A DNA stretch of 64,000 nt from Zygnema cylindricum (Eukaryota; Streptophyta; Zygnematophyceae; Zygnematales; Zygnemataceae): contig JBBHKE010003190.1 of assembly GCA_037447655.1 (NCBI GenBank), positions 613,424-677,423 on the forward strand. The letters run 5' to 3'. Numbering within the stretch: position 1 is the stretch's first letter; each line of letters starts with the position of its first letter. The position numbers were made by a program, and so were the translations under genes. The notes below the pieces were generated by a model. It made no database searches, was not told where the DNA came from, and worked only from the letters and a program-made list of their open reading frames with translations. This document shows, in pieces, positions 5,980 through 44,587 of the stretch.

Positions 5980-5983
5980 CTGC
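5980..5983. repeat. Target site duplication of G2 (left), CTGC
   Basis: CTGC immediately before the TGTCGAGC end of G2, repeated at 22261-22264 immediately after the other end. Removing 5984-22260 plus one copy rejoins the G1 gag-pol text. A 4-bp duplication fits a retroviral-type integrase. Confidence 0.9.
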
Positions 5984-6271
5984 TGTCGAGCGTGCCTGAT
6001 GAACATGAGGGAAGGGCCCAAAGCACGGCGTCGTCGGCATTGGAGTCCTACAAATAAACCCCGAATGCGAATGCTTCCCATAATAATGATCATGCCCACT
6101 GCTGCCCCCATCCCTCCCATAGACATGCATGCACATATAGGAGGAGAAGAAGGACCAAGACTAGGAATGAAGGCATGGGAAGGCGAAAAGATCTCCCCTC
6201 CCCCTTCCTTTCCCCATCAAACCGGGGAAAGGGAGTTGGGTTTTCGGTTTATCGGGTCGGTGCCCCGATTT
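5984..6271 (-). repeat. B2 split repeat of G2
   Basis: 288 bp, the outermost 3' part of G2, ending GCTCGACA. Nearly identical to B1 (7452-7740). It joins A2 directly at 6271/6272 with no polypurine tract between, unlike B1, which is preceded by one. Confidence 0.85.
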
Positions 6272-7449
6272 TGTGCTTTGTCCACTGGAAGTCTATAGCA
6301 TTTGTTCCCTCAAAACCCATTGTTTTAATACAAGGAAGTTGCAGTTTTACTCCGGGAGGTTCACGCCAAAGCAAAAGAAATTACAAAAGAATACACAAAT
6401 GCACTACCATGTTGACATATAGAAATAAATAGGAATGGCTGTTTCAGATTTAACAATATCACCTTGACCATAGAATAAAATATAAGATGGAAGATTTAAA
6501 GATGGCGGAGCAAGCTTAACATACCCCGACAATTTACGATGACAATGAGAAAAGACGATCTCTCTCCCAATGGTTGTGTAAATAGGTATGATACTCCTGC
6601 GACCCTCGGTGTCCGCAACTCGGAACCGACTACACTCTTCTCAGTTTCAAGCAGGGAAAAATCCAAAAATCACCCAAAGGGAAGATAATGCCAATTACCA
6701 GCCCGAACTATGATTCCCACAATGGACAAATCCAAAACAAAGATGGCAATAGAGTCAAAACAAAACAAAGATTCTTCCAAAAGAAGGTTTGTTAGATTTT
6801 TTGAAGGTTTTCACAGGAGACAGTACTGAAAAGCAACCTGTCTCCTTCGACCCCAATTGCCTTATACATCAAAGTTTGTCATCTTGCAAGTCCGAAAGTC
6901 AAAGCTACGCTATTAACCAATGAGCGGCAAGCAAGTGTAAATGAACTGTCACAAGACAAATTTATCCGTATTACACTCGGGGCAAAAAGTTTTGCTCCGG
7001 ACTGCGGCTAGATCCGCAGCCACAAGTATTTATTTGGACCACAATTATAAGACAAAATCCTGAAAATGACACTAACTTGCCAGACTTTGACCTAACGTAA
7101 TAAATGGACGAAAAGTCAGCTGAGACAGAACTAAATTTCTACTGACAAATACCAGCATAATCTAAATGCAAATCCGAAAAGTTACGTGGCAATCCACAAT
7201 GTACTCCCCAAAGGGGCTGGTGGCAAATGGTTCCCTATAACGGATTGTAATCTTTGAGACGGTAGAACTTTGTCATCCGGCCTCCGTTTGGCGCCAAATA
7301 AAGTGCGTTCCGCTCAGTTTAGGAAATACAAGGATTTCGTCCAGCTTGGTGCACTCACTCCTCCGTACTCTGAAGACCGTACAGAGTAAAAAGGGCCCAA
7401 AAATCCTTGGTGTTATAAAGGTATGCCTGAAAAGCACCTGGGCTTGACA
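6272..7449 (-). repeat. A2 split repeat of G2
   Basis: 1178 bp starting TGTCAAGCC in element sense and ending CAAAGCACA. It matches A1 (21082-22260, 1179 bp) along its whole length, at roughly nine bases in ten by eye. A copies also lie at 26371-27417 (G1, truncated) and 28370-29606 (copy B). Confidence 0.88.
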
Positions 7450-7451
7450 CT

Positions 7452-7740
7452 TGTTGAGCGTGCCTGATGAACGTGAGGGAAGGGCCCAAAGCACGGCGTC
7501 GTCGGCATTTTCAGTCCTACAAATAAACCCCGAATGCGAATGCTTCCCATAATAATGATCATGCCCACTGCTGCCCCCATCCCTCCCATAGAGATGCATG
7601 CACAAATAGGAGGGGAAGAAGGACCGGGACTAGGAATGAAGGCATGGGAAGGCGAAAAGATCTCCCCTCCTCCTTCCTTTCCCAATCAAACCGGGGAAAG
7701 GGGGTTGGGTTTTTTGTTTATCGGGTCGGTGCCCCGATTT
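7452..7740 (-). repeat. B1 split repeat of G2
   Basis: 289 bp directly after the polypurine tract, ending GCTCAACA in element sense. Two bases (7450-7451) separate it from the TGTC start of A2. Confidence 0.85.
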
Positions 7741-7751
7741 CCCCCCGTTTT
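7741..7751 (-). other. Polypurine tract of G2
   Basis: Element-sense AAAACGGGGGG directly before B1, at the same place as in G1 and copy B. Confidence 0.65.
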
Positions 7752-7780
7752 AGTCAACTGTGACTAAGAAAAAGAAATAA

Positions 7781-8450
7781 TTACCCGCCCAATTCACAAT
7801 TCCCGCAGAACCATGGACTACGGGATGGAGAACGTGGTTCCCACGAGGAGGGGAGACAAGGTGGGTGCCAACACTGAGTGCACTGATTGCAGACCAAGAT
7901 GTTGTGCTGCGGGGAGGACATGTTGCAGGATGATGAACAGGAAAGAGGATCGGCAAAGTAAGTCAAGTGGAAAGTGGGCTCGTCTTCCAATCCTCGGAGG
8001 TGGCAAGGGGCCACATTGATGTGATTCTCTTTAATTCTCCGACCATCTTTCCCTTCCAAAGTCAGAACTCCCTTGTTTGAAACTTCCACCACTTTCAAAA
8101 TCACCTGCCCGGCAAAAATGTCAAGCGTATCTTTTTTCTGTTGCATTCGATACACAAAGTCTCCCAGAATAAATTGTCGTTGTCGGGGCACATAATCTCC
8201 GCTCCGGCGTTGGGAATGCCACAATTGATCTCGGTGTTGTGTCGCCTGTAAATTCCCCATGGCGAGAGGTATCTCTCGGTGGAAAATTTTGGCACGGTCC
8301 GCAATCAGTTTTTTGACGGTTCCCTTGTCATCCATTTCCAGGAGAACCACCGATTGGGCCGAGGCAGCCCAGGAAGAATGGGATGTCGTCAGAATAAAAT
8401 GAAGTTAGGACTATAGGAGTGGAGAGAAGCCTGTCGGCTGAATCTATAGA
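7781..8450 (-). pseudogene. Integrase C-terminal domain and intact PHD finger (G2)
   Basis: Continuous for about 190 residues from 8350 to its stop. It holds the conserved gypsy-type segment (HRDQLWHSQRR, GDFVYRMQQKKDTLD) followed by a C4HC3 PHD pattern: CSSSC, 11 residues, CNQC, four residues to His (TQCWH), two to Cys (PPC), 16 residues, then CGNC. All eight ligands are present, the best PHD of the three copies. A chromodomain, usual in chromoviruses, is absent. The upstream part is broken by a copia LTR scrap. Histone-tail binding is inferred from the family. Confidence 0.88.
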
Positions 8451-8602
8451 AAGTGTTATTTCACAGGGGTGAATCTATATTGGGGTTCTGACTGTCAAGG
8501 GGTCAGTCACTTGGGTTTATATTAACTTGGAGTCGGCACTATCTAGATTAGCTTCTTTTGGATCTGCATACTCTAAGGGCCAATGGAGGTCTCAGAGTTT
8601 CA
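8451..8602 (+). mobile_element. Copia LTR 3' scrap inside G2 integrase
   Basis: About 150 bp matching (inverted) 14775-14950, ending with the gag start ATGGAGGTCTCAGAGTTTCA also seen at the copia1 LTR end. It replaces integrase text between the FTNLLEKC and SRQASLHSY segments, so insertion was accompanied by deletion of the third catalytic residue region. No target duplication is visible. Confidence 0.75.
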
Positions 8603-9094
8603 GCATTTCTCCAAAAGGTTGGTAAATTCTCTGGCAAATTCCGATCCCTGGTCTGTCAGAACCTCTGCTGGCGCTCTAAATTGTGACAGAATTCTTTGGA
8701 AGAAGGCGTCGGCAATGGACTTGGACTCCTTTCGGGGCAAAACCACAAGCTCTATCCATTTTGAGATATGTTCAATCATGACCAGAACAAAACGATTCCC
8801 ACGTCGGCTTGTCATAAGGTCCCAAAAGATCCAAAGACCACCGATAAAACATTTCCCGGATAGGAAAAGAATGAAGCTCAGTCACGCCCTTTTTGTCAAA
8901 AGATGCCTTAACTCGATCGCCGAAAGAGCAAGTCTGTACAATTCGGTTGACTTGGGCCCACAACGCGTGCCCTCAATAAGAACTTGTAACTAGGGAAGTG
9001 GTCCGCTTCTGTCGGAAGTGTCTGCATTGCTTATGGAGATTGGTAATCAGAGTTTCTCGATCGGATGGAGGAGGAACCACTTTCCTTATATCGT
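8603..9094 (-). pseudogene. Gypsy integrase zinc domain and catalytic core (G2, partial)
   Basis: Shows the second half of the HHCC domain (RIVQTCSFGD, last Cys lost), the first catalytic Asp (RWSLDLLGP) and the second (LTDQGSEFA). It stops at LLEKC where the copia LTR scrap begins, so the Glu-containing segment is missing. One frameshift separates the two blocks. Confidence 0.8.
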
Positions 9095-10773
9095 CTAACC
9101 ATTTCCGGAGGAGAACGCCTTGGTCCCATTCATACGCTTCATCTGGGTCTGAACTCGGGACAGTTGAACTCCACCCAAATAGGGAAGAGGGGATCCCTGC
9201 TGGATGGATTGGAGAGCTTCAAAGTCATTCCAGATGTCTTTCCGTCCAGCTCCTATGGGTGCGTGCCCCTTAACATCTGCTGCAAAGGTTGACAATGCCC
9301 CCCCAAATGGAGGAAGCCAAATTAAGGCGGAGGATGCTCGAATGAGTCCCAAATTGAGTTCCGGGTCTCCGTCATGCCGAGCCTCGGTGGAATCCAGTGT
9401 AGAAGGATCAGGGTTTCGGCTAAGTTCGTTGGCATTCCTATAGATTTCCCCTGCCCGGTGGACAATGCTGAAATCATATTCCTGCAGGATAAGCACCCAT
9501 CTGGCGAGTTTGCCGGTCAACTTACTATTTTCCATGATTCATTTCAGGGGTTCGTGGTCGGTAATCAGTGTGAAATGGACCACGTACAAATAAGGTTTGA
9601 AATGCTGGATGGCCCAAACAGCTGCAAGAAGCTCCCCATGATAACTGCTATAATTCCCCTCAGCTTGGTTGTTGCTCCGGCTGGCGTAAGCCACCACATA
9701 CTCGGCCCCGGCGTTGTCAACTAGAGCCAAAACCGCTCCCAATATAAACCTACTCCAATCAATGTAAAGGAGGAAAAGCCTTTGGTGATCAGGCATCCGG
9801 AGCACTGGGTGCTGTTTCAAGGCATCTTTCAAGAACTGGAAAGATATCTGCTGTTCCTCGGCCCACTGCCATTCTTGATCTTTGTGCAAGAGCTTATTTA
9901 GGGGCTGGGCGTGGCTACTGAACTCGAGAATAAACCTTCGATAGTAGTTAGCTAGGCCGAGAAAGGTGCGCAAGAAAGAATTGTCCTGCGGGAGAGGAAG
10001 AGCGTACAGGGCTGCAACCTTGACCATATGGGGACCCACTGTCCCGGGTGTCACCTCATGTCCGAGGTAAATAATTTTCTGCACACCAAAAATACCCTTG
10101 CCCTGGTGACATTTCAAGCGCGCTGCTTGAAGAACCCGGAGAACGATCTGGATATGCTTGAAGTGTTTTTCAAAGGTCTAGGAGAATATTATCACATCGT
10201 CGATGTAGCACCGGGCACAATTGATTCCTCACAGCGCTTCGTCCATGACCCGTTCGAACTTGGCTGGTGCATTCTTCAGTCCGAAGGGCATGTACATCCA
10301 CTCATAAAGTGTGGATCCTGCCCAGAATGCTATTCTCTCTCGGTGTTTCCGTTCCATGGCAATCTGGTGGAATCCATTCTTCATGTCCAGAGTGGAGAAG
10401 ATAGTGGTTCCAGCAAGAGAGTCGAATATCTCTTCCGTGGTTGGCATTGGATACCGGTCAGCAATGGTGGCGGTGTTCAATATGCGGTAATCCCCACACA
10501 TTCGGAAATCCACAATTTTCCCGGATGAGTCATTCTTAGGAGGGAGAACGTGGGGGAAGCAAACCCATGGAGTCTGGTGCTTTCCTGAACCAACCCGATG
10601 TCCACCAAAGTTTGGAATTTTGCGGTAATAAACTCATTTTCCTTGAAGCTTGAGGGATACTGTTTCTGCCAGACAGTTGTGGTTTTGTCGATCAAGTCAA
10701 TCAAAAAGGGGGTTCCTTTGTAGATTCCGACATTTGTTTCCGACCATGAGAAAACCTGATTGTTTCTGGCCAA
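9095..10773 (-). pseudogene. Gypsy reverse transcriptase and RNase H (G2)
   Basis: The RT palm is readable: MDFRMCGDYRILNTATIADR, DMKNGFHQIAMERKHRER, then CYIDDVIIFS with the YxDD catalytic pair, just beyond a stop. The thumb is RTFLGLANYYRRF. RNase H follows in the same 192-residue frame (10117-9539) with ITDHEPLK; the first RNase H block reads LLYIDWSR. The linker to integrase continues to 9095. Three frame changes separate the blocks. Confidence 0.85.
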
Positions 10774-10781
10774 CTGTTCTG

Positions 10782-11905
10782 TTAGCTGCTCTTTCTGTTG
10801 AGTGTATAGCTACTCCCCCAGAGTCGAGTCCATTTTTCCCGGCTCAACCGCGGCACAAGCTTCCGGTGGTCTCCCCCAGAGGTTGATGTCAATTCTAGCC
10901 CCACCTGTGGATCCACCTCTACTCCTCTGGATAATACTTTACTACTGACAACTTCCGCTAAGCTGTCCCCTTTTGAACTACCGTTCCCCCCCACCGAAAG
11001 AACTTTAGGGTGTAGAATTTTTCTCCTCTTTATCCCCCCCTCAAGCTGCAAAGTTGCTTGCATGGACAACAATGTAGGAGCTAGAAGGTAACTGCTGCGT
11101 GAATCTGGAGAATGGAGATTGGAATAGGCAAAAGAGTGTTTTGTAACCCATATAATGGCATTTAAATCCATGCTCTGCCCTATTAAGCTGCACCTTTGTG
11201 GGTCTGAAATACCTGGTGCGGCCGTGGTTCCCGGATGGTATCCCATGGCTTGTTGTCGTTCCGAAATGGTTGGTGCGGTCCAAATTCTTGCCTTGCTATC
11301 AAAAATCATCCCACTTGCTCTTTTCCCGTAGGCGTGACTGTGGGGAAAAGACACCAACGTAGGGAGGGCTCGGCGTGGATATCCGGGTGTATTGCATCGA
11401 AGAAAGGAATACGATCCGGTTTTGTTACAGGTGTTGCCATTCTCCCTTCCCGAAGTATCTCCTACACTGAAATCTGAGGGTTGGGGGTCTGCTTTTCCAA
11501 CAATTTCCGGAGGATTGGAAGCGGGATCATATTGGTCCAATATGCCCGAAGTCTGTGTGCTCAGGATCCCATCTGAGCAGCGTCAAAAACCAAGGGAGCT
11601 CCTAAAATTTGGGTTACCTGTTTCCAGCTGGCTGCAACCTCTTCCCGTCTGTCATCTCCCGGGTGGACATTCCCCAGGATGTACCCCACTGGTGGGTCCT
11701 CGATCTGCTGGATCCAGGATATTAATGTAATCATCCGATAGAATGTGCCACTCTTGCGGTCCTGATGCCCTTTTCCTTATCTTGCTAGGGAGTATCACTA
11801 ACAAGGCTAACCCGCCACCACCAGATCTACTTTGCCCAGGCTAACTAAATGGGGTGCCATTATGTTATCCACATTCTGGGGAAGACTTTGGTGAACTTGG
11901 GAAAT
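10782..11905 (-). pseudogene. DNMT3/DRM-like methyltransferase, C part (G2)
   Basis: Begins after the break at about 11905 with a conserved segment (QNVDNIMAPH), then LGKVDLVVAG, a stop, and PC for motif IV. Motif VI reads YILGNVHP (Glu to Gly). AHRLRAYWTNMIP and GRMATPVT follow. From 11540 one long frame gives the C-terminal end: TAPTISERQQAMGYHPGTT and LIGQSMDLNAIIW (motifs IX-X region). It then runs into the RT start in a shifted frame. SAM-binding motif I is gone with the missing N part. Confidence 0.82.
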
Positions 11906-12197
11906 GGAGGACGACGTAAATGCAAAGAACCCATGGATGAAAGTGGAGGTCCGAAACCCCAACGATTTTTTTTACGTACATGCTTGTCATTTTCGTACGT
12001 ACATGCGCGTGACGAGCAGGGAAAAAAATAGCTTATACGCTCCCTCGTGCAAAAAATTTCGAAATTTTTGACGTTTCACGCGTGCAATTACGTTTTGCTA
12101 TTCATCAATCGGCTATTACTTCTATAAATCACCTCACGGGGTGATCGATTTTAGTAATTTGTGAAGATGAGCTAGAAGTGGGTCGAAAAGATAATAA
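11906..12197. other. Unassigned DNA, no gene seen
   Basis: Sequence of different base composition between the broken DNMT and the MITE. It has repeated ACGTACATGC-like motifs near 11972-12010 and an 18-bp perfect palindrome (AAAAATTTCGAAATTTTT, about 12050-12067). No coding or element similarity recognised. Confidence 0.5.
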
Positions 12198-12909
12198 GGG
12201 TGAAGTTCCATCATACGTTTTTGTAATTGTACGGCAAACTCTACAGATCGGGTCGATTGAGTCGAAGTTCCATCACGTAGAGTCTATAAGCCACATGTTC
12301 TAAATTGATTGGCACCACGCAAGCTACGATCCGATATTGAATATCTTTTAGATTTTTAGCACCGACAAACTTAACTTCAAATCTTGACTTGCGTACCACG
12401 TACCTGCGTACTAAGTAATCATACGACAAAAAATTTATACTTTTTGCAAACGCCAGTCTGTGCGCCAGCTCATTTTTGAGGGTTTCATTTTTCGAACATA
12501 ACGAAAGTCATTTAAAGTTACCAAAAATAGCATGACGAGGGAATGTTACGAAATTTCGTTTTTATTTTCGGTTGTATTTTGGAAACCGCGTGTCATGTGC
12601 AAATCTTAAGATTTTTCGTTGGTTTTCCATCATGACACGTAGCTTAATCGTCCGGCGTGTCACGATTTTTTTTTTTGTATCTGCCAACCCACCTCCTCGA
12701 AAAAAAATGAAGTTACATAAAAAAATAAAGCGAACTCCTCGTAGATGAACAACCGACGGCAAGTATCACGTCCAAGACCTCGGAGAGTATCGGCAAGATT
12801 CTCTGTAATGTAGTTTTTCGTATAAAAAACAAATAGGCGGTACGATTTGGTACGGAGGGTCACTGATTTATGTAAACTATGCCACTTTTCGGCTGATGGA
12901 ACTTCACCC
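12198..12909. mobile_element. MITE-like element with 16-bp terminal inverted repeats and TAA duplication
   Basis: GGGTGAAGTTCCATCA (12198-12213) is perfectly inverted as TGATGGAACTTCACCC (12894-12909). TAA lies directly outside both ends (12195-12197, 12910-12912). The element is 712 bp, has no convincing coding frame and is AT-rich inside. A 3-bp TAA target and GG-starting ends fit the PIF/Harbinger (Tourist) group, so it is probably a non-autonomous member. A transposase was not found in the window. Confidence 0.75.
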
Positions 12910-13429
12910 TAACGCCAAATTGGAGTACGCTCGAAGTTTCAAAAGGACGTGAAATGTAATTTGGTTTTTGCCCATTATTCGTACGGCGTAAGGTTTTTGT
13001 GAAAACGACGGGAAAAAACCCTTACTTAAATACATGGGCACACCGCCTTTCGCACACAATTAGCCTTCGTTCTGTGAACTAACGTTTCGTAGTTCACAGT
13101 TCAATGCTTGCTGCATTGATAAAGCCGACAGAGACATATTGCTAAGTATGATACCACCATGATGCGGGAGTGTCCGCCCACAAATGTCTAAACTACACAT
13201 CTTAGAGAGGTTTACCATTGGAACACAAATCATTTTTGTTAGGTTGGTCGTACATATTAACTGTATCTTGTCAATTAAGCGTCCTTTGTCGAACATACTA
13301 ACAATATTTAAAAGAATAGTCGCGGGCGACCTGGTGCTTTGCCCTTTGGTTGCCAACGGCCTTTCAATTTTTAACAGTACAGTAAGTACTGTATCTATTA
13401 TGTACGAACATCTTACGTGACGCCATCAC
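12910..13429. other. Unassigned DNA, no gene seen
   Basis: About 520 bp without recognisable protein or repeat. Small open frames on both strands show no family motifs. It may be part of the same insertion that removed the G2 protease and DNMT N part. Confidence 0.4.
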
Positions 13430-14472
13430 TGAAATTATGGTTCTGCACGGTTTGTAGGTTGTCGATTCGCAATCTCGCGTCGACGGTGTTGTTCTACAAC
13501 CACAGTAGCAGGAGGAGAACCAGAAGCAGTAGTAGTGGAAGTAGACATTTAAAGCAGAAGCTAACAAGCACCCTACTCAACAACCAACTTCAAGATATAA
13601 TAGAATGCAACTCCGTGATCTATGCAGACTCAAATTCTGCATAACAGTAGTAAGCACAGTTTAGAATCACCCTACAAAGATTCAACTCAATTGATCTAGC
13701 CAACCATAAGATATTCACACTGTCGATTCACAAAAAACTACCTAAGTAGATTAATATCCCAAGACTTGGATGATCACAATTTGTCTGAGTCCTAAACTAT
13801 ATACTCATAGTGAGTATCTACTGGTCACACTAATTTAAATGACTGTACTACAGTACTGTCCTATGCTACAACAAAGTACTAAAACTGTACTTACTATTCC
13901 AAGAGTACTTCCAAAACCTAATTTTGCCATTTCTTTAAATCTTAATAGTGCGACACTATTTTAAATTAGCTAAACTACAAATCCTTGTTTCCATATATTT
14001 ACACATAAAAAACCGTACATTAAATGTTCCTGGCGCTTAGTCAGCAGTGGTGTATAGCATCCGGCTCACTGTTGTCGTGTAGTACGAAGCACTTGATACC
14101 GTCCAAGTGTGTTTCGTCATTTGTAGTCCCTTTTGAATCGCGTCCATTAATTTGATGTCAATCAACAACCCTTCTTGGCTAACCGTACCATACTTTCCCA
14201 GATATGCAGTTTGTGTTCCGTTCGTCTGATTTTGTTAATCCGTTCGTTATTCTCGTGACAGGTGTAACTGGTCATCAACGTCACTCCATGAAACCTGCAA
14301 CATCCTTTTCCTGCCGACGCGTGTCTAACTGGTCGTACAATACACTCTCTTAATCTTTTATTACTGTAACACTATTTGAGGTAAGTATTTCAAGTTTTCA
14401 TTTCCCAAAATATTCTAAGTCTTTAATTCCTCCTCACGGCTGTGTTTACTGAGTAAAGATTTCCAAATTCAA
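13430..14472 (-). mobile_element. Copia4-like 5' fragment (LTR, leader, start of gag)
   Basis: 13430-13552 matches the copia4 gag start (Ser/Thr-rich MSTSTTTV region at 56932; the ATG is lost here). 13553-13710 matches its leader, including CCATAAGATAT. About 13711-14472 matches the copia4 LTR, with shared GTCGTGTAGTACGAAGCAC and a related end (AAAGATTTCCAAATT). The rest of the element is absent. Divergent and old. Confidence 0.7.
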
Positions 14473-14774
14473 AAGACGGCGCTTATGCGGTTTCCATATG
14501 ATACATACTGTTGGCAGTACGGCGAAATGTATCATTAACGGTAGATTAGAAGTTACACGACGGGTGAGGTCGGCCGTGGGATTTGTTACTACAATTATCG
14601 GTTCGTATGTTGATGCCCACTATGTACAAGCGCCAAATACCCTCCAACACTTAATTGCAACACGTTAACTGTACATGACATCTTTCATAGTTCATACTGC
14701 ATACAAGATACCCCTTAAAAGTTTGCACTGAAAACACTTGTACATGACTTCTGTACATGACCAAGTGTCACTTT
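14473..14774. other. Unassigned DNA, no gene seen
   Basis: About 300 bp between the copia4-like fragment and a copia LTR. It contains several TGTACATGAC repeats (near 14672, 14740, 14752). No gene or known element recognised. Confidence 0.4.
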
Positions 14775-15739
14775 TGAAACCCTATGGGCTCCATTCCCAA
14801 ACACAATTCGCAGATGAAAAGAAGTTAATCTAGGAAGTGCCGACTCCAACTTGATATAAACCCAAATGATTGACCCCTTGACAATCAGAACCCCATTACA
14901 GCTTCACCCTGTGAAATAAGACTTTCTGTGTGCTCAGTTCCACCACAGAATGCAAAGTTAGAATATGAGATTTGGACATATTCACCCACTTTGACTTTCC
15001 CTTAGAAATGCAGCCACCTTGGCAGGCAATAACTCTTACCAACTACACCCTTGTGTAGCCTAGACTCCCTCAAGTCGGCAGCAAAATCAATCACTGAAAA
15101 TGATCAAAATTTTTTTTGTGTAGCGTGGACTCCGCTGAGCTTGCAGCAAAAAAAATCACTGAAAATGGTCAAGTAAATTGATAGTTATGGCTGCCCAAAG
15201 TTAGCCATTTATACAAGGTGCTCTATTGGAGAGAGGGTCCTATCTGTCAATTTTTTCTAAGTCCTATCTCCCTCTAAAACTCTATCTACTGAAGTACGGC
15301 ACCAATTAAAATAATGTGTCGTACAAAAAAGTACAAGTGCCGGTCTACTTTCTGTACGGCCATAGTACGACATGGCCAAAATGTTGACACATGTCATATC
15401 TGGATTCGTTTCTGTAATCCCCGGAGTTGCCGCAATCTAATGTAGCTTTGCCACGTGTCACTCAATGTGGCGGTGATCGCAAACCGCCAAAATCCTACTC
15501 TGCGATCTCGGCATCCTTCGCGGCCGTCCGATCGAAACTGGATTTCAATCGTGGATGTTATAAATACTTGGGCGGTATTCTTTCCGACGTCAAACAAAAT
15601 GCGCGGTATTTATTTTGTAGCCGTACCGTACGTCGTACTTTGCACAACTGTTTCTATGCATTATGTATATAGTTCCCGTTAAATGAATTAGTCAAATTAT
15701 AACTATTTATATAACTATCATACACAATATACTCTATCC

Positions 15740-15834
15740 CATAACCTAGACTATTAGGATAAGGTTACCGGTTACTGAGGGATTGACGCAGGAAGGTACC
15801 AGGATCAAATCCTGGCTCTATGAAACTACCTTTT
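15740..15834 (+). other. tRNA-like unit in copia LTR (antisense to element)
   Basis: A-box-like GATAAGGTTACCGG and B-box-like AGGATCAAATCCT, followed by TTTT at 15830-15833. Same position as the units at 19205, 38886, 44286 and 50862. Confidence 0.55.
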
Positions 15835-15879
15835 AGAAAACCCAATGGAACAACTGCCTATCTCTCTCTAGACAGCACA

Positions 15880-15962
15880 GGCAGCCATGGCTAACTCCTC
15901 CTCTAGTCTTCAGTGACTGCGACAAGTGTGGGGACTTGAGTGAGGAGTTAGAGGCAGGCTGT
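15880..15962. other. Conserved LTR hairpin
   Basis: Arms GGCTAACTCCTC and GAGGAGTTAGAGGC with flanking imperfect pairing; the loop contains CAGTGACTGCGACAAGT. Confidence 0.65.
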
Positions 15963-16026
15963 CAATATCTACTATTTGCTTTTTATTTTGCAATCTCTAG
16001 ACCTAGAAAATACTCGAATTTCAACA

Positions 16027-17401
16027 GTGGTTTTGCGGTTGTGGTCTTTTTGGGTCATTTTATGCCTGTCTCTCCTCTGATGCGAGGTGGAGGAGCGAAG
16101 TTGTTTAAGACCATCTCCCACTCCCACATTCCACGCTTCGTGCCAGAAGCTGCCGGTATGGTGGGCAATTGGGGATCATAAATCCCTGCCTATTAAATCA
16201 GCGTAGTTAGCACCCGTTGTGCTTTCATGTTCAAGCTTTGGTAGTAACTCCTGTGTCTGTCTTTGGAGTTGTTGCATTGCTGTTAGGGCAGCAGGCCAGG
16301 AAGACGATCCCAAACGGAGTGCAGCCAATTCCGCAGCCATGGCGGCCATTTGCTGACTCTGCTGTTGGATTATGATCTCTCGTGTGAGTCTTGCTGGAAC
16401 AACCAATCCGCGTTCTGAGTCTCTGGTGTAGGCAGCACTGGGCGCTCCCAAGGGTAAAGAAGTTGTAGGGGAAGAGGGTTAACGGCAGTTTCTCCTCCCC
16501 CTATGAACAGAGCGAATTGCATCATTTCTTTTGGAATTTTGTTCCTCCGGAAACATTGCCCCTCCTGGTGCCCCATAAAACCACAGGCCTCGCATTTGTG
16601 GCCCTCGTTGGTATACTTGCTCCGGATGTCGTTGGAGATCTAGGCATCGTCAAACTTTGGCAATTTGATTTGCCGCAGTTCAATCTAGGACATTTTCGAA
16701 GTTTCGCTCCGGGGAGTGGGGCGATAATTGTCCTTTGTGACCAGAGTGATCTCCCCCCCCCCTGCTCCTTTGAGCCAGTCTTGCTGCTGCCTCTGGCCTC
16801 TTTCTCAATGCTCTACTTCCCATTCTTTCAGCTTGAGGGCTAGCTCAGATTTGAGTTTCCTGCTGCAGTGTTTCCATCCATGTCCCGGTTGTTAACAATT
16901 TAGGCAATTGTACAGAATTACCCGATCGTCTGCCCCCATTGCAGGTTAGGGCCCACTGTTCGCAGCTTGCTTCCCTTTAAGCTTTCGCAAAGCTTAAAGT
17001 TCCGCTTGTTCTTCCCCACTCAAGGAAGTTTCCTCGGCGAATCCTGCAAATTTCGCTCTGGCCTTGTTAATCACGGCCTTCTCCCTTGCCTCACTGTGAA
17101 CAAAGTGGTCGTATAACTTCATTGCCACTAGTGAGATGTCCTTGGCAAAGAGATTTATGTCTTGGATTGCTTGTCCGGCAATCCAATTGTCCAAGGCAGT
17201 CTGCCTTGTCGGTCCGAAGGTATAATGGACAGCTATAAAATACTTTGTGGCCATTGCAAGAAGGTCAATGGTTGACAGCTTGGTTTTCTGGCAAAGGCTT
17301 AAAAGACGGTTGAAGAGAGTCTGGGGAGTCTCGTTTTTCCAATATCGAAATTCCTTGAATTCCTTGATTGCTGATTAATTCCTCTCGGTGTAGAAGAGTC
17401 T
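16027..17401 (-). pseudogene. Gypsy capsid C part and nucleocapsid (G2)
   Basis: Element order: capsid C-terminal part (17254-16994, MATKYFIAVHY to GEEQAEL), a first zinc knuckle CLNC-stop-QPGHGWKHC near 16900 and frameshifted linker. A second knuckle region (GHQEGQCF at 16576) is followed by a Gln/Ala-rich coiled segment (IIQQQSQQMAAMAAELAALRLGSS, 16451-16176). It ends at the copia LTR at 16026. Knuckles bind the genomic RNA in related elements. Confidence 0.8.
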
Positions 17402-18444
17402 CTAGATATTAAGAAGGGTAGTGCAAGGGTTGGGGTTGGCCACCATGCGAGTTGCTGCCCGGGCTTCTTGGATCGCCTGCAGCTGGTTAACATATGCACT
17501 TCCTTGCGCCTGTAGTTTCATGTCCTGTGTAAATGTAGGAGTCACAGGGGTCGCCGTGGCCACCGCCAAGTCAGCCTCAGCTTGCAAAACAGCGGCATCA
17601 AGGGTTGGATTCGAGATTTTGATGCTAGGAGCCATCAAAAGAGGTTGACGCTCCTTGTAATCCGCCAACGCCCCTCCCGACAGGTAGTTGACCATCATGG
17701 GGAATAGAGTGGTTTCGAAGTCATCGGGAATGGCTCCTCCCCTGTATTTATTGATTTCTGATTGGGTGAACGATTTCCACAACAACTCGAAATCCGAGAA
17801 AGCGATCCCCGAGCTGTCTCCCGTAAAGATTCGGATATCCCCCATCTCTTTTTCTTCCTCTGCAGAGTTCATGAAATGAGAAGAGGAAGGCCGAGTGGGG
17901 CTCACAAACTGAGCGGGTGAGATGACTCTAATATCCTCTTCCTCCGGAACAGAACCAGGTCCTTCTCTGCCAGAGGGTGCGGCTCCCTGTGGCGCGAATC
18001 CCCCTTCCACTAAGGAAGTACCAGCGCCAAAAAAGATGGTGGGCTGGAGGATGTCCCCCACTACTCCTCTATGTCTAGCAAAATATTGTGGATCTCGGAG
18101 AACAGTTGCCCCTGATGGGATGTGGAGACGCGGCTTGTTCATAGGCTTTTGGTGGAGTGCTGGTGGCGAAGTTGGCGAAAGAGATGGAGACGGAGACGGC
18201 CGAGCCCTTGCGGGAAAAGGTGTCTGTCTCCTGTTTCGCCTCCGAGAGGTCTCAGGAGGTGAAGTTCCAAAGCTGGAGGAAGGGGAGCGTCGGTGAGGCT
18301 GGGAATAGGCGGGTACGTCGTATTTGTGAGGTAACACTAACGGACTACCCGACCCACGGACAACTGCAGTAGGAAAAACGGATGGCGAAGAAGAGGGATC
18401 AGGACAGTCACGGGGTGCTGTCGTGGGTTCCGCGGAGTGAGAGG
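17402..18444 (-). CDS. Gypsy gag, proline/serine-rich and capsid part (G2)
   Basis: One open frame up to LLNI-stop at 17402. The first 150 residues are rich in Pro, Ser and Arg with RS-like stretches (RRSPSSS, ETSRRRNRR), probably disordered and basic. The second half is the capsid: DIRIFTGDSSGIAFSDFELL, ALADYKERQPLLMAPS and NPNPCTTLL. Before the solo LTR at 18450 inserted, this frame was continuous with the N part (20958-19499), giving a gag of more than 850 residues. Inactive now. Confidence 0.8.
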
Positions 18445-19204
18445 AATAATGCAATTTTGTGTCCTCCATTGGACTACAAAATACAGGAAGCCTCTAGATA
18501 GTTATTAGCTAACTCACTTTCAATGAAAACCACTGCTACACTAGCAGACAAGAAGACAATCTGACTACACCCTTGTGCAGCCTGGACTCCCTTGAGTCCG
18601 TAGAAAAAGAAATCTCTGAAAACGCCCAACCAGGCGATAAGTTATAGGGTGGCAAAGATGCCAATATAAATAAACTCTCAAAGAGAGAGAGGACTATCTT
18701 CCTGATTTTTCCTAAGTCCTACTTTTTCCTAGTTCCTCTCACAGTCCCTATCTACTGCATGTACGAACCAATCAGAACACTGTACAGTACCAGAAAGTAC
18801 TACTGCCGATGTACTTTCTGTACGGCCTTTGTACGACAAGGCCATTCGGCGGACGCGTGTCCATTTTCTACTCGTCCGCACATTCCTTGAAATTCCTGCG
18901 ACCGAATGTCGTCTCTCCACGTGGCGCCAGGTCATGCAACGTCAATAAATGCCAAAGTGACATTCCGGGATTTTGGCGATGACGTGCGCCGTCAGATTTG
19001 ACGCGAAATGTAATCTCAGCCGTAATAAATACTTGCGCGATATTTGTTTCGATGTCGAAACAAAATGCGCGATATGTGTTTCAATTAGTATAGTACTTCG
19101 TACTTTATCAAACTGTATCTATGCATGCCGTAAAGATTTTTAGTTAAATGATTTCTGTATAGTACAATAGTTTAAATACTAATCAAACCCTATATATCCT
19201 AACG

Positions 19205-19287
19205 GACTTCTACGACAGACTGGTTAGAGCTAACGACTACGCTGCACTCTGCTGGTCAGGGGTTCGAGTCCTTCCGGACTCAACCTT
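19205..19287 (+). other. tRNA-like unit in solo copia LTR
   Basis: ACTGGTTAGAGC resembles a D-arm/A box and GGGGTTCGAGTCC is a near-perfect B box. TTTT follows at 19285-19288. It is antisense to the LTR. Confidence 0.6.
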
Positions 19288-19335
19288 TTGTTGAGAGTGA
19301 CTTAAGTCACTCTTTAGTCCTTCCTATGGAGCTGA

Positions 19336-19420
19336 GGCAGCCATGGCTCCATCGCTCTCTCTCTCATTCAGTGACTACAACAAGTATGGGGGCGAGAGAG
19401 AAGAGATGGAGGCAGGCTAC
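19336..19420. other. Conserved LTR hairpin
   Basis: Arms GGCTCCATCGCTCTCTCTC and GAGAGAGAAGAGATGGAGGC; loop with TCAGTGACTACAACAAGT. Confidence 0.7.
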
Positions 19421-19498
19421 CTACATTTTCTTTGTATGTTTTCCGCTAATTAATTTAGACCTAGAAAATTCAATAAAACTACTTATTTCAACAAATAA

Positions 19499-20958
19499 GG
19501 TGGAGGTGCAGAAAATGAGGGCTCCGGGGATTTTCTAGAAGAAGTGTGAGCAGGTCTAGGAGTCCTCAAGGGGATGTGAATCCTCTCGTCAAGTCGTAAC
19601 TCCACTAAAGCCTCCACAGCAGAAGACACCTCCACCGAGACAAAGGTAGTCTCTTCACGAAGAGCCGAAGCGTTTCCCGAAGGTAGATGTGCACCCAAAC
19701 CCTCCACATTAGGTCTTGTGTTTTCCTCCCCTTTCCGCGGAAGGAGAGGCTGTTGGCTTGGCTCTGAAGAAGGCATTTCAGGCTGAGTGCTTGCGAGAGG
19801 GGAAGTCCCCGCTGCTGATATAAGAGGAATCTTCCCGTTAAGAATCCCACTGGTCCTACGCCGAGCTTCCCTAATGAGCCTCAATTCCTGTTCCCATGCC
19901 ATTCGCCTCTCTTCCTCTAAGGCCTTCTCATTTAGCGTGACAGGTCCGGCCCCCGTTGTAGCCTGTCCTTGGGATTTCAGAACCTCCACTAGTTCTTTGG
20001 CTTTTTCCACTACTTTGGTAAGATCCGCTATCTCGATTCCCGGAATTTCGGGATCATTAGGTTTGGTTACGCCACAATCCTTCAGACAAATCTTCTGGTC
20101 CCGTACCCGGAACCTCGGGATCGGTAGGTCTGGATCTCCAAAGACCTTCGGTAGGGCGGACACGAATGGTGTTGGGAGCATATCTCTCGGTGGAGGGTGG
20201 AATAAGAGTCGGGGACGTCTCCTCTTTGGGAAGCGATGCGAATCTCCCCTTGCTCTCACGGTGGTCAAACCTCTTTCCCCTAAATGGATCTTGTGCTTCC
20301 CTCTCAATACCCCCTTCTCCTCTACGAGGCCGATAAGAGGTACCTTCCCGGGTTGGTCGGCTGTCTGCGGTGTCCTGAGAGGAAGATCGAGGAGGGCGAG
20401 AATGAGAGCTCTCTGGGACCGGTCTTGCACCGACAGGGAAGAGCTGCTCTTCGATGAACTACTCAAAATCTCCACCACCCCCTCAACGGGTCTAACCACT
20501 CTAACTCGATCGGTCCGAGCCACTCTTTGTACTAGCTCCTTCTTCACCTTCAGCTCAAGGAGGTCATGAAGAGCCAGGAGTTCCTTACGACCTGGTCGAC
20601 CTGTGTCCGTCAAAACCGCGGGGTCAATAATCTTGGATCGGGTATGTAGCCCGACCTCGGGAAGAGGGCCCACATGGGGCTCCCTCTGCGCCTGCCTCTT
20701 TGGGCGAGCCCTGGGAAACTCCCTATTCCTCTCTTCAGCATGGACCCTGGCGGCTTTTGCCAAAGAAAGGTAATGTTCGGGAGTTTGAGTGGGTCCTGGA
20801 GGAGGAGGAGAACCAGCAGACGTTTCCTTGGCTGGCGATTCAAAAACAGTCTCCATGGGCTCCGACTCCACGGACCTCAGAGATTTCCCTTCCGGCATGG
20901 GCCTCTCCGGTCGACCTTGCTCTCCAAATCCGTTATCCGGAGTCTCTCCTCCCCCCAT
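19499..20958 (-). CDS. Gypsy gag N-terminal part (G2)
   Basis: Open for about 490 residues from ATG at 20958 (MGGGETPDNG) to the solo LTR. The same MGGG start is seen in copy B (29730), and G1 has a related ATG at 26247, which supports this start over an upstream TTG. The protein is charged, with Pro-rich patches (PPPPGPT) and a likely coiled-coil (DLTKVVEKAKELVEVLKSQG, then EEERRMAWEQELRLIREARR). It has no similarity I recognise beyond this family and may be a matrix-like or capsid-accessory part of gag. Confidence 0.75.
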
Positions 20959-21081
20959 GATGACAGAGGTGTACGGGAAAGAGTGGTGTATAGAACTAAA
21001 GCTTGCTTCCAAAAAGAGGGCTTCCAAAGTGAAAGCTCCTATCCCCTCTAATCCGAGAAGACAGGTGGGGCTTTACAGTAC
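20959..21081 (-). other. Leader between A1 and gag (G2)
   Basis: Short untranslated leader with CCTGTCTTCTCGGATTAGAGG just inside A1, conserved in G1 and copy B. It should hold the primer-binding site. It does not begin with TGG, and I could not assign a tRNA. Confidence 0.45.
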
Positions 21082-22260
21082 TGTGCTTTGTCCACTGGAA
21101 GTCTATAGCATTTATTACCTCAAAACCCACTGTTTCGATACAAGGAAGTTGCAGTTTTACTCCGGGAGGTTCACGCCAAAGAAAAAGAAACTACAAGCGA
21201 ATACACAAATGCCCTACCACGTTGACATATAGAAATAAATAGGAATGGCTGTTTCAGATTTAACAATATAACATTGACCACAAAAATAAAATATAAGATG
21301 GAATATATAAAGATGGCGGAGCAAGCTAAACATACCCCGGCAATTTACTATGACAATGAGAAAAGACGATCTCTCTCCCAATGGTTGTGTAAATAGGTAT
21401 GATACTCCTTCAACCCTCGGTGTCCGCAGCTCGGAACCGACTAGACTCTTCTCAGTTTCAAGCAGCGAAAAATCCAGAATTCACCCAAAGGGAAGATAAT
21501 GCCAATTACTAGCCCGAACTAAGATTCCCACAATGGACGGATCCAAAACAAAGATGGCAATAGAGTTAAAACAAAACAAAGATTCTTCCAAAAGAAGGTT
21601 TGTTGGATTTTGTGAGGGTTTTCACAGGAGACAGTACTGAAAAGATCCCCGCTCCTTTGACCCCAAGTGCCTTATACATCAAAGTTTGTCATCTTGCAAG
21701 TGCGAAAGTCAAAGCTACGCTATTAACCAATGAGCGGCAAGCAAGTGTAAATGAACTGACACAAGACAAATTAATCCGTACTACACTCGGGGCAAAAAGT
21801 TCAGCTCCGGACTGCGGCTAGATCCGCGACTGAAAGTATTTATTCGGTCCACAATAATATGACAAAATCCTGAAAATGACACTAACTTGCCAGACTTTGA
21901 CCTAACGTAATAAATGGAAGAAAAGTCAGCTGAGACTGAACTAAATTTCTACTGACGGCTACCAGCATAATCTAAATGCAAATCCGAAAAGTTACGTGGC
22001 AATCCACAATGTACCCCCCAAAGGGGCTGGTGGCAAATGGTTCCCTGTAACGGAATTGCAATCTTTGAGACGGTATGACTTTGTCATCCGGCCTCCGTTT
22101 GGCGCCAAATAAAGTGCGTTCTGCTCAGTTTAGGAAATAAAAGGATTTCGTCCGGCTTGGTGCACTCACTCCTCCGTACTCTGAAGATCGTACAGAGTAA
22201 AAAGGGCTCGGAAATCCTTGGTGATATAAAGGTATGCTTGAAAAGCACCTCGGCTTGACA
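21082..22260 (-). repeat. A1 split repeat of G2
   Basis: 1179 bp from TGTCAAGCC (22260) to CAAAGCACA (21082). It has TTTATATCACC close to the start, a possible TATA-like motif. Full-length match to A2 (6272-7449). Confidence 0.88.
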
Positions 22261-22264
22261 CTGC

Positions 22265-27417: not shown

Positions 27418-28369
27418 CTCCACAAACCCCTCCGCTTGCTTCATGAAATTATTTTCCTCTTATTCTCCATAGACGAAGGCTATTTTGATATCCATCTGTT
27501 GTATCTCTATATTTTCTGCTGCCGCCAAACTGAGCAGAATTTTGACCAAAGGAAATTTGACCAACCCTCTTTCTGAGTATATCCTTCTGCCACTAATCTG
27601 GCCTTATACCTCTGAAGTATTGAGTTTCAGTTTGAAGACCCACTTACATCCGATTGGTTTTTTGTCTGGTGGGCAATCCACTAGCCCCCATGTGTTTGAA
27701 TTGTTAATCGCTTCTGGGTATGTTTGCGGCTCGTTAGGGTGAGACAACTCTTTTTGAGCTCTCTTTCTTGAATCCTGTTGCTACTCCTTCTACCTCCCTC
27801 AAAATCTGTAGCCGGTATAGAGGGCATCCTTGAATTTCTTATTTCCTTCCCTTTTTCTCCCCTATCGGTGGGAGCTATATGTTTTTCTCTTTCATCTCCT
27901 ATTTCTGTTTCTGTCATAAAAACATCTTCAGAAATCTGTATTTTTTCTTTTGAAGTCTCAAGTGAATCTGGTTTTCCTTGTTGAACTGTCTCCAGAGAGG
28001 AGTAGTTTCTGTATCATTTTCTAGATCACCTATAATTCCGATTTTTTTCACTTTGGTATATTTGAAGGGATCTACAGATTTTACCTCATCCATCACTAGA
28101 AGGTGCTTTACCATAATGATGTCTTTTTTCTCAACATTATATACTTTATACTCCTTTACATCATCGTTATATCCTATTAGATATACGGGCTTCCCTCTTG
28201 TATCTAGTTTTTTGTTTGCATTGTCATTATTTAGACTATACACTTGACTACCAAATACCTTTAAATGAGATCTGGTTTTTTACCCGTTTATCTCTCATAT
28301 GGTGTCTGGTTTTTGACAGTTGGTGTCAAAACTCTCTTTTTGAGATACTTTCCACAATTAATAGCTTCA
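27418..28369 (-). pseudogene. Copia2 integrase end to RT start (part split off by gypsy B)
   Basis: Continuation of the decayed copia2 whose gag-integrase lies at 46079-48401. Recognisable: INCGKYLKKRVLTP, YSLNNDNANKKLDTRGKPVY, IIMVKHLLVMDEVKSVDPFK (integrase C-terminal region), ATDFEGGRRSSNR (linker), then the RT start MKQAEGFVEE. All match copia1 in order. It stops at 27418 against the truncated G1 A repeat, so a deletion or rearrangement lies there. Confidence 0.82.
28366..28369. repeat. Target duplication of gypsy B (left), TTCA
   Basis: TTCA here and at 46075-46078 flank gypsy B. Removing B and one TTCA restores copia2 integrase text, apart from a 2-base frame offset. Confidence 0.85.
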
Positions 28370-29606
28370 TGTCAAGCTATGTGCTTTTCAGGCATGCCTT
28401 TATATCACCAAAAATTTCCGGGGCCCTTATTCACTGTACGGTCCTCAGAGTACAGATGAGTGAGTGCACCAAGCCGGACGAGATCCTTGTATTTTTTAAA
28501 CTGAGCGGAACGCACTTTATTTGGCGCCAAACGGAGGCCGGATGACAAAGTTCTACCGTCTCAAAAATTGCAATTCCGTTACAGGGAGCCATTTTCCACC
28601 AGCCCCCGTGGGGGGTACATTGTGGATGGTCACGTAACTTTTCGGATTTGCATTTAGATTATACTGGTAGCCGTCAGTAGAAATTTAGTTCAGTCTCAGC
28701 TGACTTTTTGTCCATTTATTACGTTAGGTCAAAGTCTGGCAAGTTAGTGTCATTTTCACGATTTAGTCTTATAATTGTGGACCAAATAAATACTTCCGGC
28801 CGCGGATCTAGCCGTAGTCCGGAGTATAACTTTTTGCCCCGAGTGTAGTACAAATTAATTTGTCTTGTGTCAGTTCAATTACACTTACTTGCCGCTCAAT
28901 GGTTAATAGCGTAGCTTTGACTTTTGGACTCGCAATTTGACAAACTTTGATGTATAAGGCACTTGGGGTCGAAGGAGACAGGTTGCTTTTTCAGTATTGT
29001 CTCCTGTGAAAACCCTCAGAAATTCCAACAAACCTTCTTTTGGAGAATCTTTGTGTTGTTTCGACTCTATTGCCATCTTGGTTTTGGATCTGTCTTTTGG
29101 GGAAATCACAGTCCGGTCGAGTAGTTGGCATTATCTTCCTTTTTGGGTGATTTTGGACTTTTTGCTGTTTAGAATCGAGAAGAGTCTGGTCAGTTCCGAG
29201 CTGCGAACACCGAAGGTTGGTAGAGTACCATACCTTTTGACAAAACTCTCGGGAGACGGGTCGCCTTTTTCTCATTTTCATCGTTGATTGTTGGGGTATG
29301 TTGAACTCGTTTCGCTACATTTCACATTTTATATCTTTTATTCTCTTTTCTGGGGCAAGGTGATATTGTCAAAAGTCTAATAATGACATGAACCAAAACA
29401 CAAAATAAAACCAAAAAACAAACTAAACAACCGCGCGTCAATTGCGCAACGACCGATTACAAATTTGATTCTAACAAGAAATTATTATGGCTAACCGTTT
29501 GTATCACTGTTAGTTTGAGAGTAACAAAATCACAGTTTTACTAAAACATTGAAACTAGTGGGTTTTGAGGGAACAAATGCGTTAGACTTCCCATCGACAA
29601 AGCACA
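28370..29606 (+). repeat. A repeat of gypsy B
   Basis: 1237 bp, TGTCAAGC to CAAAGCACA. It matches A1 of G2 except for about 29371-29560, where an A-rich, unrelated segment (AAACCAAAAAACAAACTAAAC) replaces the usual text. Confidence 0.85.
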
Positions 29607-29729
29607 GTACTAAAAAAACCACCTGTCTTCTCGGATTAAAGGGGATAGGAGCTTTCACTCTGGAAGCCCTCTTTTTGGAAGAGAGCTTTAGTTCTATTCA
29701 CCACTCTTTCCCCCTACACCTCTGTCATC

Positions 29730-31018
29730 ATGGGGGGAGGCAAGACTCTCGATAACGGATCCGGAGAGCAAGGTCGACCGGAGAGGCCCATGCATGAAGG
29801 GGAATCTTTGAGGTCCGAGGAGTCGGAGCCCATGGAGACTGTTTTTAGATCGCCAGCCAAGGAACCGTCTGGTGGTTCTCCTTCTCCTCCACCTCCCGGT
29901 CTGACTCCCAAACATTACCCTTCTTTGGCAGAAGCCGCTAAGGTCCATGCTGAGGAGAGGAATAGGGAGTTTCCCAGGGCTAGGCCAAAGAGGCAAGCGC
30001 AGAGGGAGCCCCATGTGGGCCCCCTTCCCGAGGTCGGGCTACATACCCGATCCAAGATTCCGAGGGCCGAGATCCAGATTGACCCCGCTGTTTTGACGGT
30101 CACCCGTTGACCAGGGCGTAAGGAACTCCTTGCCCTTCACGACCTCCATGAGCTCAAGGTGAAGAAGGAGTTGGTACAGAGAGTGGCGCGGAAAGATCGA
30201 GTCAGAGTGGTTAGACCCGTCGGAGGGGTGGTGGAGATTTTGAGCAGTTCTTCGGAGAGCAGCTATTCACAGTCGGTGCCAGACTGGTCCCAGAGGGCTC
30301 CCTATTCTCGCCCTCCCCCATCTTCCTTTCGAACACCGAAGCTTGCCGACCCACCCGAGAAGGTTTCTCTTCTCGGCCTTGTAGAGGAGAAGGGGGTATC
30401 AAGAGGGACGCACCAGATCCAGTGAGGGGAAAGAGGTTTGACCACCGTGAGAGCAAGGGAAGATTTGCACCTTTCCTCATGGAGGAGAAATTCCCGACTC
30501 CCATTTCACCCTCCACCGAGAGACCTGCTCCCAACACAACTCGTGTCTGCCATGCCGAAGGGCTCTGGAGATCCAGGCCTACCGATCCCCTGGTTTTGGG
30601 TACGGAACCAGCAGATTTGTCCGAGGGATGGTGGCGGACCAGACCTAATGATCCCGAATTTCCGGGCACCGAGATAGCGGATATTACCAAAGTAGTGGAA
30701 AAAGCCAAGGAACTAGTGGAGGTTCTGAAATCCCAGGGACAGGCTACGGCGGGGGCCGGACCCGTCACGGTAGATTGGGAGGCCTTAGAGGAAGAGAGGC
30801 GAAAGGTATAGGAACAGGAATTGATGCTCATTAGGGAAGCTCGGCGTAGGAGAAGTGGGATTCTTAGCCGGAAGATTCCTCCTACCTCACAGATAGGGCC
30901 GCATTCAGAAGCTCCAACAGTGGGGACTTTTCCTCTCGCCAAATCCCAGCCTGAAGGCCTTTTGCGGAGCCAAGCCAAGAGCTTCCCCTTCCGCGGAGAG
31001 GGGAGGAAATCATAGGAC
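29730..31018 (+). pseudogene. Gypsy gag N-terminal part (B)
   Basis: Starts at ATG 29730 (MGGGKTLDNGSGEQGRPERP), conserved in G2. A TGA after VLTVTR, a stop near 30422 and several frame changes break it. The coiled-coil block DITKVVEKAKELVEVLKSQG is readable at about 30676-30735. Unknown function; probably the N part of the gag polyprotein. Confidence 0.78.
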
Positions 31019-31023
31019 CTAAT

Positions 31024-32689: not shown

Positions 32690-32699
32690 GCTCTTCGAA

Positions 32700-33412: not shown

Positions 33413-33433
33413 CTCCAAAGGCAAAGACAAGAG

Positions 33434-38760: not shown

Positions 38761-38885
38761 TGTGTCCGTACCGTAAGTCGTACATTTATATATTACTGGA
38801 TCTATGTATCCCGTAATTCATTTCAGTTAAATGGTTTATCGCACGTATACATATTTAAATAAATATCAAACTATATGCTACGTAA

Positions 38886-44582: not shown

Positions 44583-44587
44583 AATTG

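Follow-up and report, generated by a model that had tools for sequence, protein, structure and literature searches.

In the usual teaching, long terminal repeat (LTR) retroelements and retroviruses integrate by the free ends of a linear DNA, and circles with joined ends are side products. A locus of the streptophyte alga Zygnema cylindricum raises the question of how a Gypsy-type element whose repeats do not stand as an LTR at each end comes to be integrated. The window, by which we mean the whole 64,000-nucleotide stretch analysed (GenBank assembly GCA_037447655.1, contig JBBHKE010003190.1, positions 613,424 to 677,423 of the forward strand), is a pile of nested retroelements, and the element in question, G2, sits within another, G1. 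The initial annotation had read G2 as a Gypsy element with split direct repeats in the order A1-coding-B1-A2-B2. The layout, the target duplications, the boundaries, the internal joint and the variation of the scar can be read directly from the DNA, and their best explanation is probably that the ends of the complementary DNA (cDNA) are joined and that the integrase acts at an internal joint between B and A.

Split repeats and target duplications across the genome

Self-comparison and boundary reading reproduced both the order and the repeat coordinates that had been given for G2, which on the minus strand reads A1-coding-B1-AG-A2-B2. A1 (21082–22260) starts with TGTCAAGC and contains a TATA sequence at 21676–21668, with a likely RNA 5′ end near 21645; it adjoins a candidate self-priming primer-binding site (21070–21081, GTACTGTAAAGC in this copy). 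B1 (7452–7740) is immediately preceded by the core of the polypurine tract, GGGGGG (7741–7746), as the initial annotation had it, and is separated by the 2-bp spacer AG of the B–A integrase joint (7450–7451) from A2 (6272–7449), in which a TATA sequence (6866–6858) is followed by the likely RNA start motif GCTTTTCAGTAC at 6834–6823. B2 (5984–6271) ends in GCTCGACA and meets A2 at 6272/6271 in an exact fusion, the proposed scar of joined cDNA ends. The reported CTGC duplication, GCAG on the element strand, flanks the element at 22261–22264 (left copy) and 5980–5983 (right copy), and the uninterrupted target site is present at about 33684–33688 in copy B, the third family member of the window (compared by eye). 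Alignment of the repeat pairs, proposed with the initial annotation, gave identities of 93.3% for A1 with A2 and 94.8% for B1 with B2, versus about 80–86% when they are compared with their counterparts in G1 and copy B; a wider comparison that takes in bases outside the repeats gives lower A and B identities. Because the members of each pair are closer to each other than to the repeats of G1 and copy B, they very probably had the same sequence at the time of insertion.

The joint pattern GCACGCTCGACA-NN-TGTCAAGC, with up to three mismatches, was scanned over the 352,776,454-bp genome and was found at 222 + 253 places (about 475), compared with 9 + 7 (16) for the reversed control. The spacer is GC in 67 of 100 listed joints, GT or AC in 26 and another dinucleotide in 7 (hand count). 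We sampled 2.1 kb around the first 20 listed plus-strand joints located beyond 11 kb, the samples being drawn from exact-match listings. At 16 of the 20, the B that precedes the joint recurs after A2 (joint-A2-B2), and 15 of these 16 end in CTCGACA, followed by a flank unique to each locus. In L048 the end is degenerate and B1 is not clear, and L045 and L050 showed only a partial B2 in the comparison. The remaining four (L034, L038, L044 and L052) are interrupted or lack a readable continuation. A G2-derived query, which could miss diverged leaders, detected no gag leader beyond A2 in any of the 20 stretches. Two diverged subfamilies, L036/L037/L041–L043/L051 and L035/L040/L046/L047/L049, differ in B (about 200–210 versus 280–306 bp aligned) and have the joint and the TATA-to-RNA-start spacing in common. 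Among the 5′ samples, three of 32 stretches lay within an A. Standard LTRs as outer ends of other copies, an outcome that the initial annotation had considered, were not seen in the sampled joints. The earlier description is also corrected in that the split layout recurs genome-wide and is not peculiar to G2; A1-coding-B1-A2-B2 looks like the usual integrated form of the family.

Target duplications were then read at further copies. A genome scan for A starts of one subfamily gave 182 + 208 matches (control, 0). Same-strand pairs 10–17 kb apart among 100 listed A-start rows yielded 12 elements (C665, C644, C746, C902, C1390, C1856, C2303, C2610, C2623, C174, C254 and C1508), to which C1156 (a joint paired with an A start from separate listings), C370 and G2 were added (n = 15). 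Both ends were found in 13 of the 15 split elements; the B2 end of C174 and C2623 was not found within the fetched stretch. A perfect 4-bp duplication is present in seven of the 13 (G2 GCAG, C746 TCCT, C644 AAGA, C1856 TGTT, C2610 CTTT, C254 AATC and C1508 GGGC), far above expectation for a chance match of 1/256 per element. The one-unit copy B also has a perfect 4-bp duplication, and empty sites are available for two insertions, G2 and copy B. The family therefore has one Ty3/gypsy trait, a short target duplication, here of 4 bp, and lacks another, identical LTRs at both outer ends. Its outer ends are instead the A start (TGTCAAGC type) and the B end (GCTCGACA), the two sides of the B–A joint, as had been claimed for the integrated ends TGTC...GACA.

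Predicted reverse-transcription ends, internal joint and proposed scar

The boundaries at which reverse transcription would begin and end lie elsewhere. A G run directly precedes B1, and a run of at least six G stands upstream of 17 of the 20 sampled joints. At the other boundary, A1 in C746 and C902 ends in AAGCACA and is directly followed by the primer site GTACTGAAAAGC, which is complementary to GCTTTTCAGTAC at 12 of 12 positions. A motif of the GCTTTTCAGTAC type near A615, matching at 9 or more of 12 positions and with TATA 32–34 nt upstream, occurs in 18 of 20 copies and is perfect (12/12) in six. Among 2,000 dinucleotide shuffles of A2, none gave 12/12 and ten gave 11/12. An ordinary transfer RNA (tRNA) primer site was rejected, as no conserved TGG directly follows A (by eye). 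The RNA 5′ end would thus lie about 615 bp into A1, some 32 bp past the TATA sequence, and the 3′ end very probably in A2. With a primer site after A1 and a G run before B1, the linear cDNA should therefore be B-A-coding-B-A, and the LTR in the sense of reverse transcription should be B-A, set by a Tf1-like self-priming site and the G-run tract.

A search for relatives found seven loci, of which L006 and L007 were left out as distant, as were the distant matches L031–L033; no relative was confirmed in IMG/VR. L001–L005 are eukaryotic-type retroelement contigs that, as assembly contamination, lie in bins titled cyanobacterial, haloarchaeal, Mollicutes and Halanaerobiaceae. The integrases of L001, L002 and L003, contaminant contigs in prokaryote bins, are 48, 40 and 42% identical to that of the window family. 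GACA-NN-TGTC occurs exactly once in each of these three, with the spacer GC in all three, 52–104 nt past a G run and with perfect arms of 4, 9 and 7 bp. When the 300 nt after the G run were shuffled, GACANNTGTC appeared in 54, 37 and 18 of 5,000 shuffles (L001–L003), and GTGACAGCTGTCAC, with up to one mismatch, is found in the three bins (5.7 Mb) only at the L002 and L003 joints. In none of the three does TG stand right after the tract. Judged by these matches, the joint GACA-GC-TGTC is common to the window family and its distant relatives L001–L003. L001 also has an apparent self-priming arrangement, with TATA at 7210, ATCTTTGTCAAGT at 7239 and its complement at 7415; a 13-nt pair of this kind arises in 46 of 3,000 shuffles, and in three with the TATA in place.

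Several candidates were set aside. A second hairpin in L001 (about 7232–7252) may be the joint but was passed over because it overlaps the likely RNA start, and the closed 9,158-bp path of L001, whose first 127 nt equal its last 127 nt, was rejected as evidence for a circle because collapsed repeats produce the same. L004 and L005 are 99% alike and lack the joint region; their GACANNTGTC matches lie inside a coding frame. A possible leader intron in L001 (L001:7298-8282, GTAAGT ... TTTGCAG by eye) would enclose the self-priming site, in which case a spliced RNA could not prime. L002 and L005:2-6460, from bins named Sed10, are relatives with a PHD-finger integrase. The 2,152-aa frame of L005, which itself stops short of the joint, has no DNA methylase match, and for this reason the joint lineage and the methylase may be separable.

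The A2–B2 junction was scored by eye at 17 places, 16 of the sampled joints and G2. Exact fusion fits four (G2, L041, L042 and L051), a G stands at the seam in five (L036, L039, L040, L043 and L053; two of them with three A bases lost), and losses or filler are seen in eight (L035, L037 and L045–L050), the smallest being a single base (L035) and the largest some 230 bases of B (L050). The junction varies while the A1–primer site, tract–B1 and B–A boundaries stay constant. In C746, C902 and C370 an intact A1 end accompanies a different A2–B2 in the same copy, and the difference therefore arose at insertion or later. Heavy decay is unlikely in C746, because the first 471 bp of its A pair are 96.6% identical and its B pair 98.2%. 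Fused cDNA ends with variable loss or gain, as in two-LTR circles, are thus seen by eye, the cDNA ends being those predicted from the primer site and tract. By its appearance, A2–B2 looks like joined cDNA ends.

A probable route through joined cDNA ends and its rivals

The route that we consider probable would run as follows. RNA would start about 615 bp into A1 and end in A2, and its first 12 or so nucleotides would pair with the site just past A1 and prime minus-strand DNA, with plus strands beginning at the G-run tract immediately ahead of B1. Reverse transcription would yield linear B-A-coding-B-A DNA, whose A end and B start would be joined with small losses or additions, giving the A–B scar. 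The integrase would bypass the DNA ends and cut the palindrome GACA-NN-TGTC at the joint where B meets A. Insertion at the cut joint, with a 4-bp target duplication, would leave A1-coding-B1-A2-scar-B2. The joined-end intermediate (a circle of the two-LTR type), the cutting of the joint by integrase and the RNA ends are the steps that we infer from sequence. The initial annotation had suggested that the element might have inserted as a circle opened between B and A. The variation of the A2–B2 scar favours this idea, but the one-sided order of the integrated copies is not what a symmetric two-LTR circle predicts.

That order is the first of several observations that weigh against the proposed route. 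A symmetric two-LTR circle should give A-B-A-coding-B from half of its openings, and none of the 16 resolved joints has coding sequence after the joint; to produce one order only, either the joint close to the left DNA end would be cut before the ends are joined, or that joint would be marked in some way. Two of the three window copies are one-unit A-coding-B, a form that could come from double cuts, one-LTR circles or later B1/B2 recombination. The target duplication matches at only three of four positions in C665 (TCGT/TTGT) and C902 (ATGA/AGGA) and is absent from C1156 (CGTG/TATT), C370 (AGTA/CGGT), C1390 and C2303, the last two of which have degenerate B2 ends; C370 may not be a single insertion. 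Pairing at the primer site reaches 10, 11 and 9 of 12 positions in G2, G1 and copy B, and the fetched A1 end of C665 has no primer site of this kind. Self-priming is not convincing in L003, which has one 12-nt pair with no TATA upstream, or in L002, which has no pair of at least 11 nt. The nearest upstream tract was chosen in these relatives, although it is not unique in L002 and L003, where four and 12 runs of at least six G are present. As for the scar, its changes may postdate insertion, the seam G may be a substituted A as well as a kept tract base, and A's own end is directly visible only in G2, G1, copy B, C746, C902 and C370.

The strongest rival, which we regard as unlikely, reverses two of the steps: only the left-most B–A joint of linear B-A-coding-B-A would be cut, and the short B piece would stay bound until its free end is linked to that of A. 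The outcome would be the same, and a closed circle would not be obligatory. Cutting first explains why one of two equivalent joints seems to be opened, the other order having been met at none of the 16 resolved joints, and it agrees with the closeness of the joint to the predicted left DNA end (288 bp in the window family; 108, 56 and 57 bp in L001–L003). It requires that the cut-off B piece be retained until repair, of which there is no sign in the sequence. Templating in the manner of DIRS and PAT elements is considerably less probable. Here contiguous B1A2 would bridge the RNA or cDNA ends, and a circle would be made by copying, without end joining. The repeat layout is that described for PAT and Ngaro (PMC4157794; PMC5890265), but a copied A2–B2 would be constant, and the differences among insertions therefore speak against copying in each round; moreover, the primer site and G-run tract are located as ordinary LTR reverse transcription requires. 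That A2-B2 is a later solo insertion beside a one-unit A-coding-B element, as exists in G1 and copy B, is extremely improbable and was ruled out as a general explanation, since 16 of 20 joints continue to A2-B2 across a 2-bp spacer with no 4-bp duplication at B1–A2, a single duplication embraces the whole A1...B2 element where found, and the A1/A2 and B1/B2 of G2 are sisters. An ordinary LTR retrotransposon, rearranged or misassembled in this copy, has next to no likelihood: taken by themselves, L001 and L003 would fit ordinary LTRs collapsed by assembly, but the joints recur in the hundreds, precise ends and duplications are found on several contigs, and TG does not directly follow the G-run tract in the copies read.

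Relation to known elements and other features of the window

A Gypsy element with split repeats has already been published. KnitGypsy-Dnmt3 of Klebsormidium nitens (de Mendoza 2018) is described as having a DIRS-like repeat arrangement with Gypsy domains (PMC5890265), so that the combination of split repeats and a gypsy integrase, which the initial annotation had read correctly, has a precedent. The window family shares with KnitGypsy-Dnmt3 the Gypsy domains, an element-borne DNA methyltransferase and A-coding-B-A-B repeats; unlike the present analysis, the accessible part of that account is silent on target duplications, the primer site, the joint, any scar and the mechanism (PMC5890265). The two were set side by side by description, and the integrase of copy B is 45% identical to a K. 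nitens protein, the closest named relative among the matches listed. The layout is thus already known, and what is new is the duplications, self-priming, the joint, the scar and a wider distribution. No other split-repeat Gypsy element, and no explanation of the layout, was recognised in the literature searched, which covers subscription journals thinly.

DIRS, PAT and Ngaro elements are not known to make a target duplication, unlike the window family. PAT and Ngaro are described with split direct repeats, A1-coding-B1A2-B2, and a tyrosine recombinase (PMC4157794); the window family has such repeats and differs in its rve integrase, its 4-bp duplications and the Ty3-like reverse transcriptase of L001, with no recombinase among the listed matches. 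In the self-primed chromoviruses Tf1/Sushi and Tcn1, the RNA 5′ end is complementary to the primer site (PMC6317226), as the predicted RNA 5′ end is here, whereas the window family carries a PHD finger and its integrase ends are not those defined by primer site and tract. Retroviruses are described as inserting the free ends of linear DNA, with two-LTR circles produced by end joining as side products (PMC4372172, PMC5314604), and the palindrome formed where two LTRs meet is cleaved by the integrases of HIV-1 and PFV (PMC1905944). End joining and a palindromic junction that integrase can cut are the points of likeness; retroviral circles are a side product or reserve, cut at the end junction (PMC1905944, PMC4372172, PMC5314604), whereas in the window family the route would be the main one and the palindrome lies inside the repeat.

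We lean slightly towards the view that in a whole Ty3/gypsy lineage, in streptophytes and the sources of L002–L005, the integrase sites have shifted from the cDNA ends to an internal palindrome, so that the cDNA ends need to be joined before or during insertion. Circle-junction-type integration would then be obligatory, and it would have been reached independently of the tyrosine-recombinase elements with the same repeat layout. Judging by the genomic copies of the family, a DDE integrase may be able to act routinely at a joint within the repeats, alongside end joining. As every insertion retains a separate scar, the end-joining step would be recorded in genomes, and this record makes the joined-end model testable by counting. 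Split direct repeats may accordingly be a solution for inserting permuted cDNA and not a mark of tyrosine recombinases.

Pfam matches over the frames of the three copies comprise reverse transcriptase, RNase H, H2C2, rve integrase and C5 DNA methylase, with a sub-threshold PHD finger in the frames of the window copies. The order reverse transcriptase-RNase H-integrase, the rve integrase and, in the relative L001, a reverse transcriptase whose best PDB matches are Ty3 Gag-Pol and reverse transcriptase are of the Ty3/gypsy type; the integrase part of L001 matches PFV integrase. The initial annotation had claimed a gypsy-type DDE integrase, and the Pfam matches listed for the scanned frames (some of those of the window copies, plus relatives) include no tyrosine recombinase; a chromodomain is likewise missing from the Pfam matches listed. 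The 390-aa integrase frame of copy B (44575–45747, plus strand; rve match, with D, D and E by eye) has 199 protein relatives at E ≤ 0.001; the matches listed also name the liverworts Calypogeia fissa and Riccia sorocarpa, and a PHD finger is present in 42 of the 120 listed of the 199 (hand count). The methylase (PF00145) is matched in copy B (35032–35319, plus strand) and not in the scanned G2 frames, and was judged to be Dnmt3-type by eye only; a C-terminal piece of a methylase, used as a protein query, gave no matches. The methylase region of L001 (L001:3-3491) has 38 related proteins, including ones from Marchantia polymorpha and Calypogeia fissa and a weak Closterium match; the Marchantia and Calypogeia relatives extend beyond the published Klebsormidium case. 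Taken together, the protein matches make a streptophyte source probable.

Self-comparison also corrects the earlier description of the G2 coding part, which is broken by foreign sequence at about 11899–16031, 18450–19493 and 8449–8601. On the minus strand, the leader and first gag-like part (19494–21069, with a 529-aa frame at 19483–21072 that has no Pfam match) is followed by an interruption (18450–19493) that resembles 50652–51668 and is presumably a lone LTR, the gag region (16032–18449), a second interruption (11899–16031) and the later coding part (8602–11898), which comprises a part aligned to the methylase region of G1 (no Pfam match in G2), reverse transcriptase, RNase H and integrase core. 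Pfam places the reverse transcriptase at 10229–10633, RNase H at 9539–10177 and the integrase core at 8600–8881; the C-terminal part of the integrase (7781–8404) contains the PHD finger match, under the Pfam cut-off.

G1 and copy B are A-coding-B, as the initial annotation had stated. G1, the host of G2, spans 33–27415 on the minus strand, with A at 27415–26371, coding sequence at about 26370–22265 and 5983–264, and B at about 263–33. Its A is 5′ truncated, without the first 140 bp or so, and its target duplication is for that reason unreadable. Copy B (28370–46074, plus strand) is flanked by TTCA at 28366–28369 and 46075–46078, and the empty site matching this duplication lies near 41429–41432, in a copia element (38132–44582) that is inserted in copy B and has LTRs 98% identical and open reading frames of 872 and 606 aa with copia domains. 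ARAGORN found no tRNA genes in the window, and Rfam gave no match. Within 100 kb to the left and 53 kb to the right of the window there are no additional A-B copies, only matches to a repeat of about 190 bp within the A of copy B (29370–29557). It recurs at C2393:591341-591528 (188 bp at 99%) and 697433-697512 (80 bp at 92.5%) and is probably a small mobile element.

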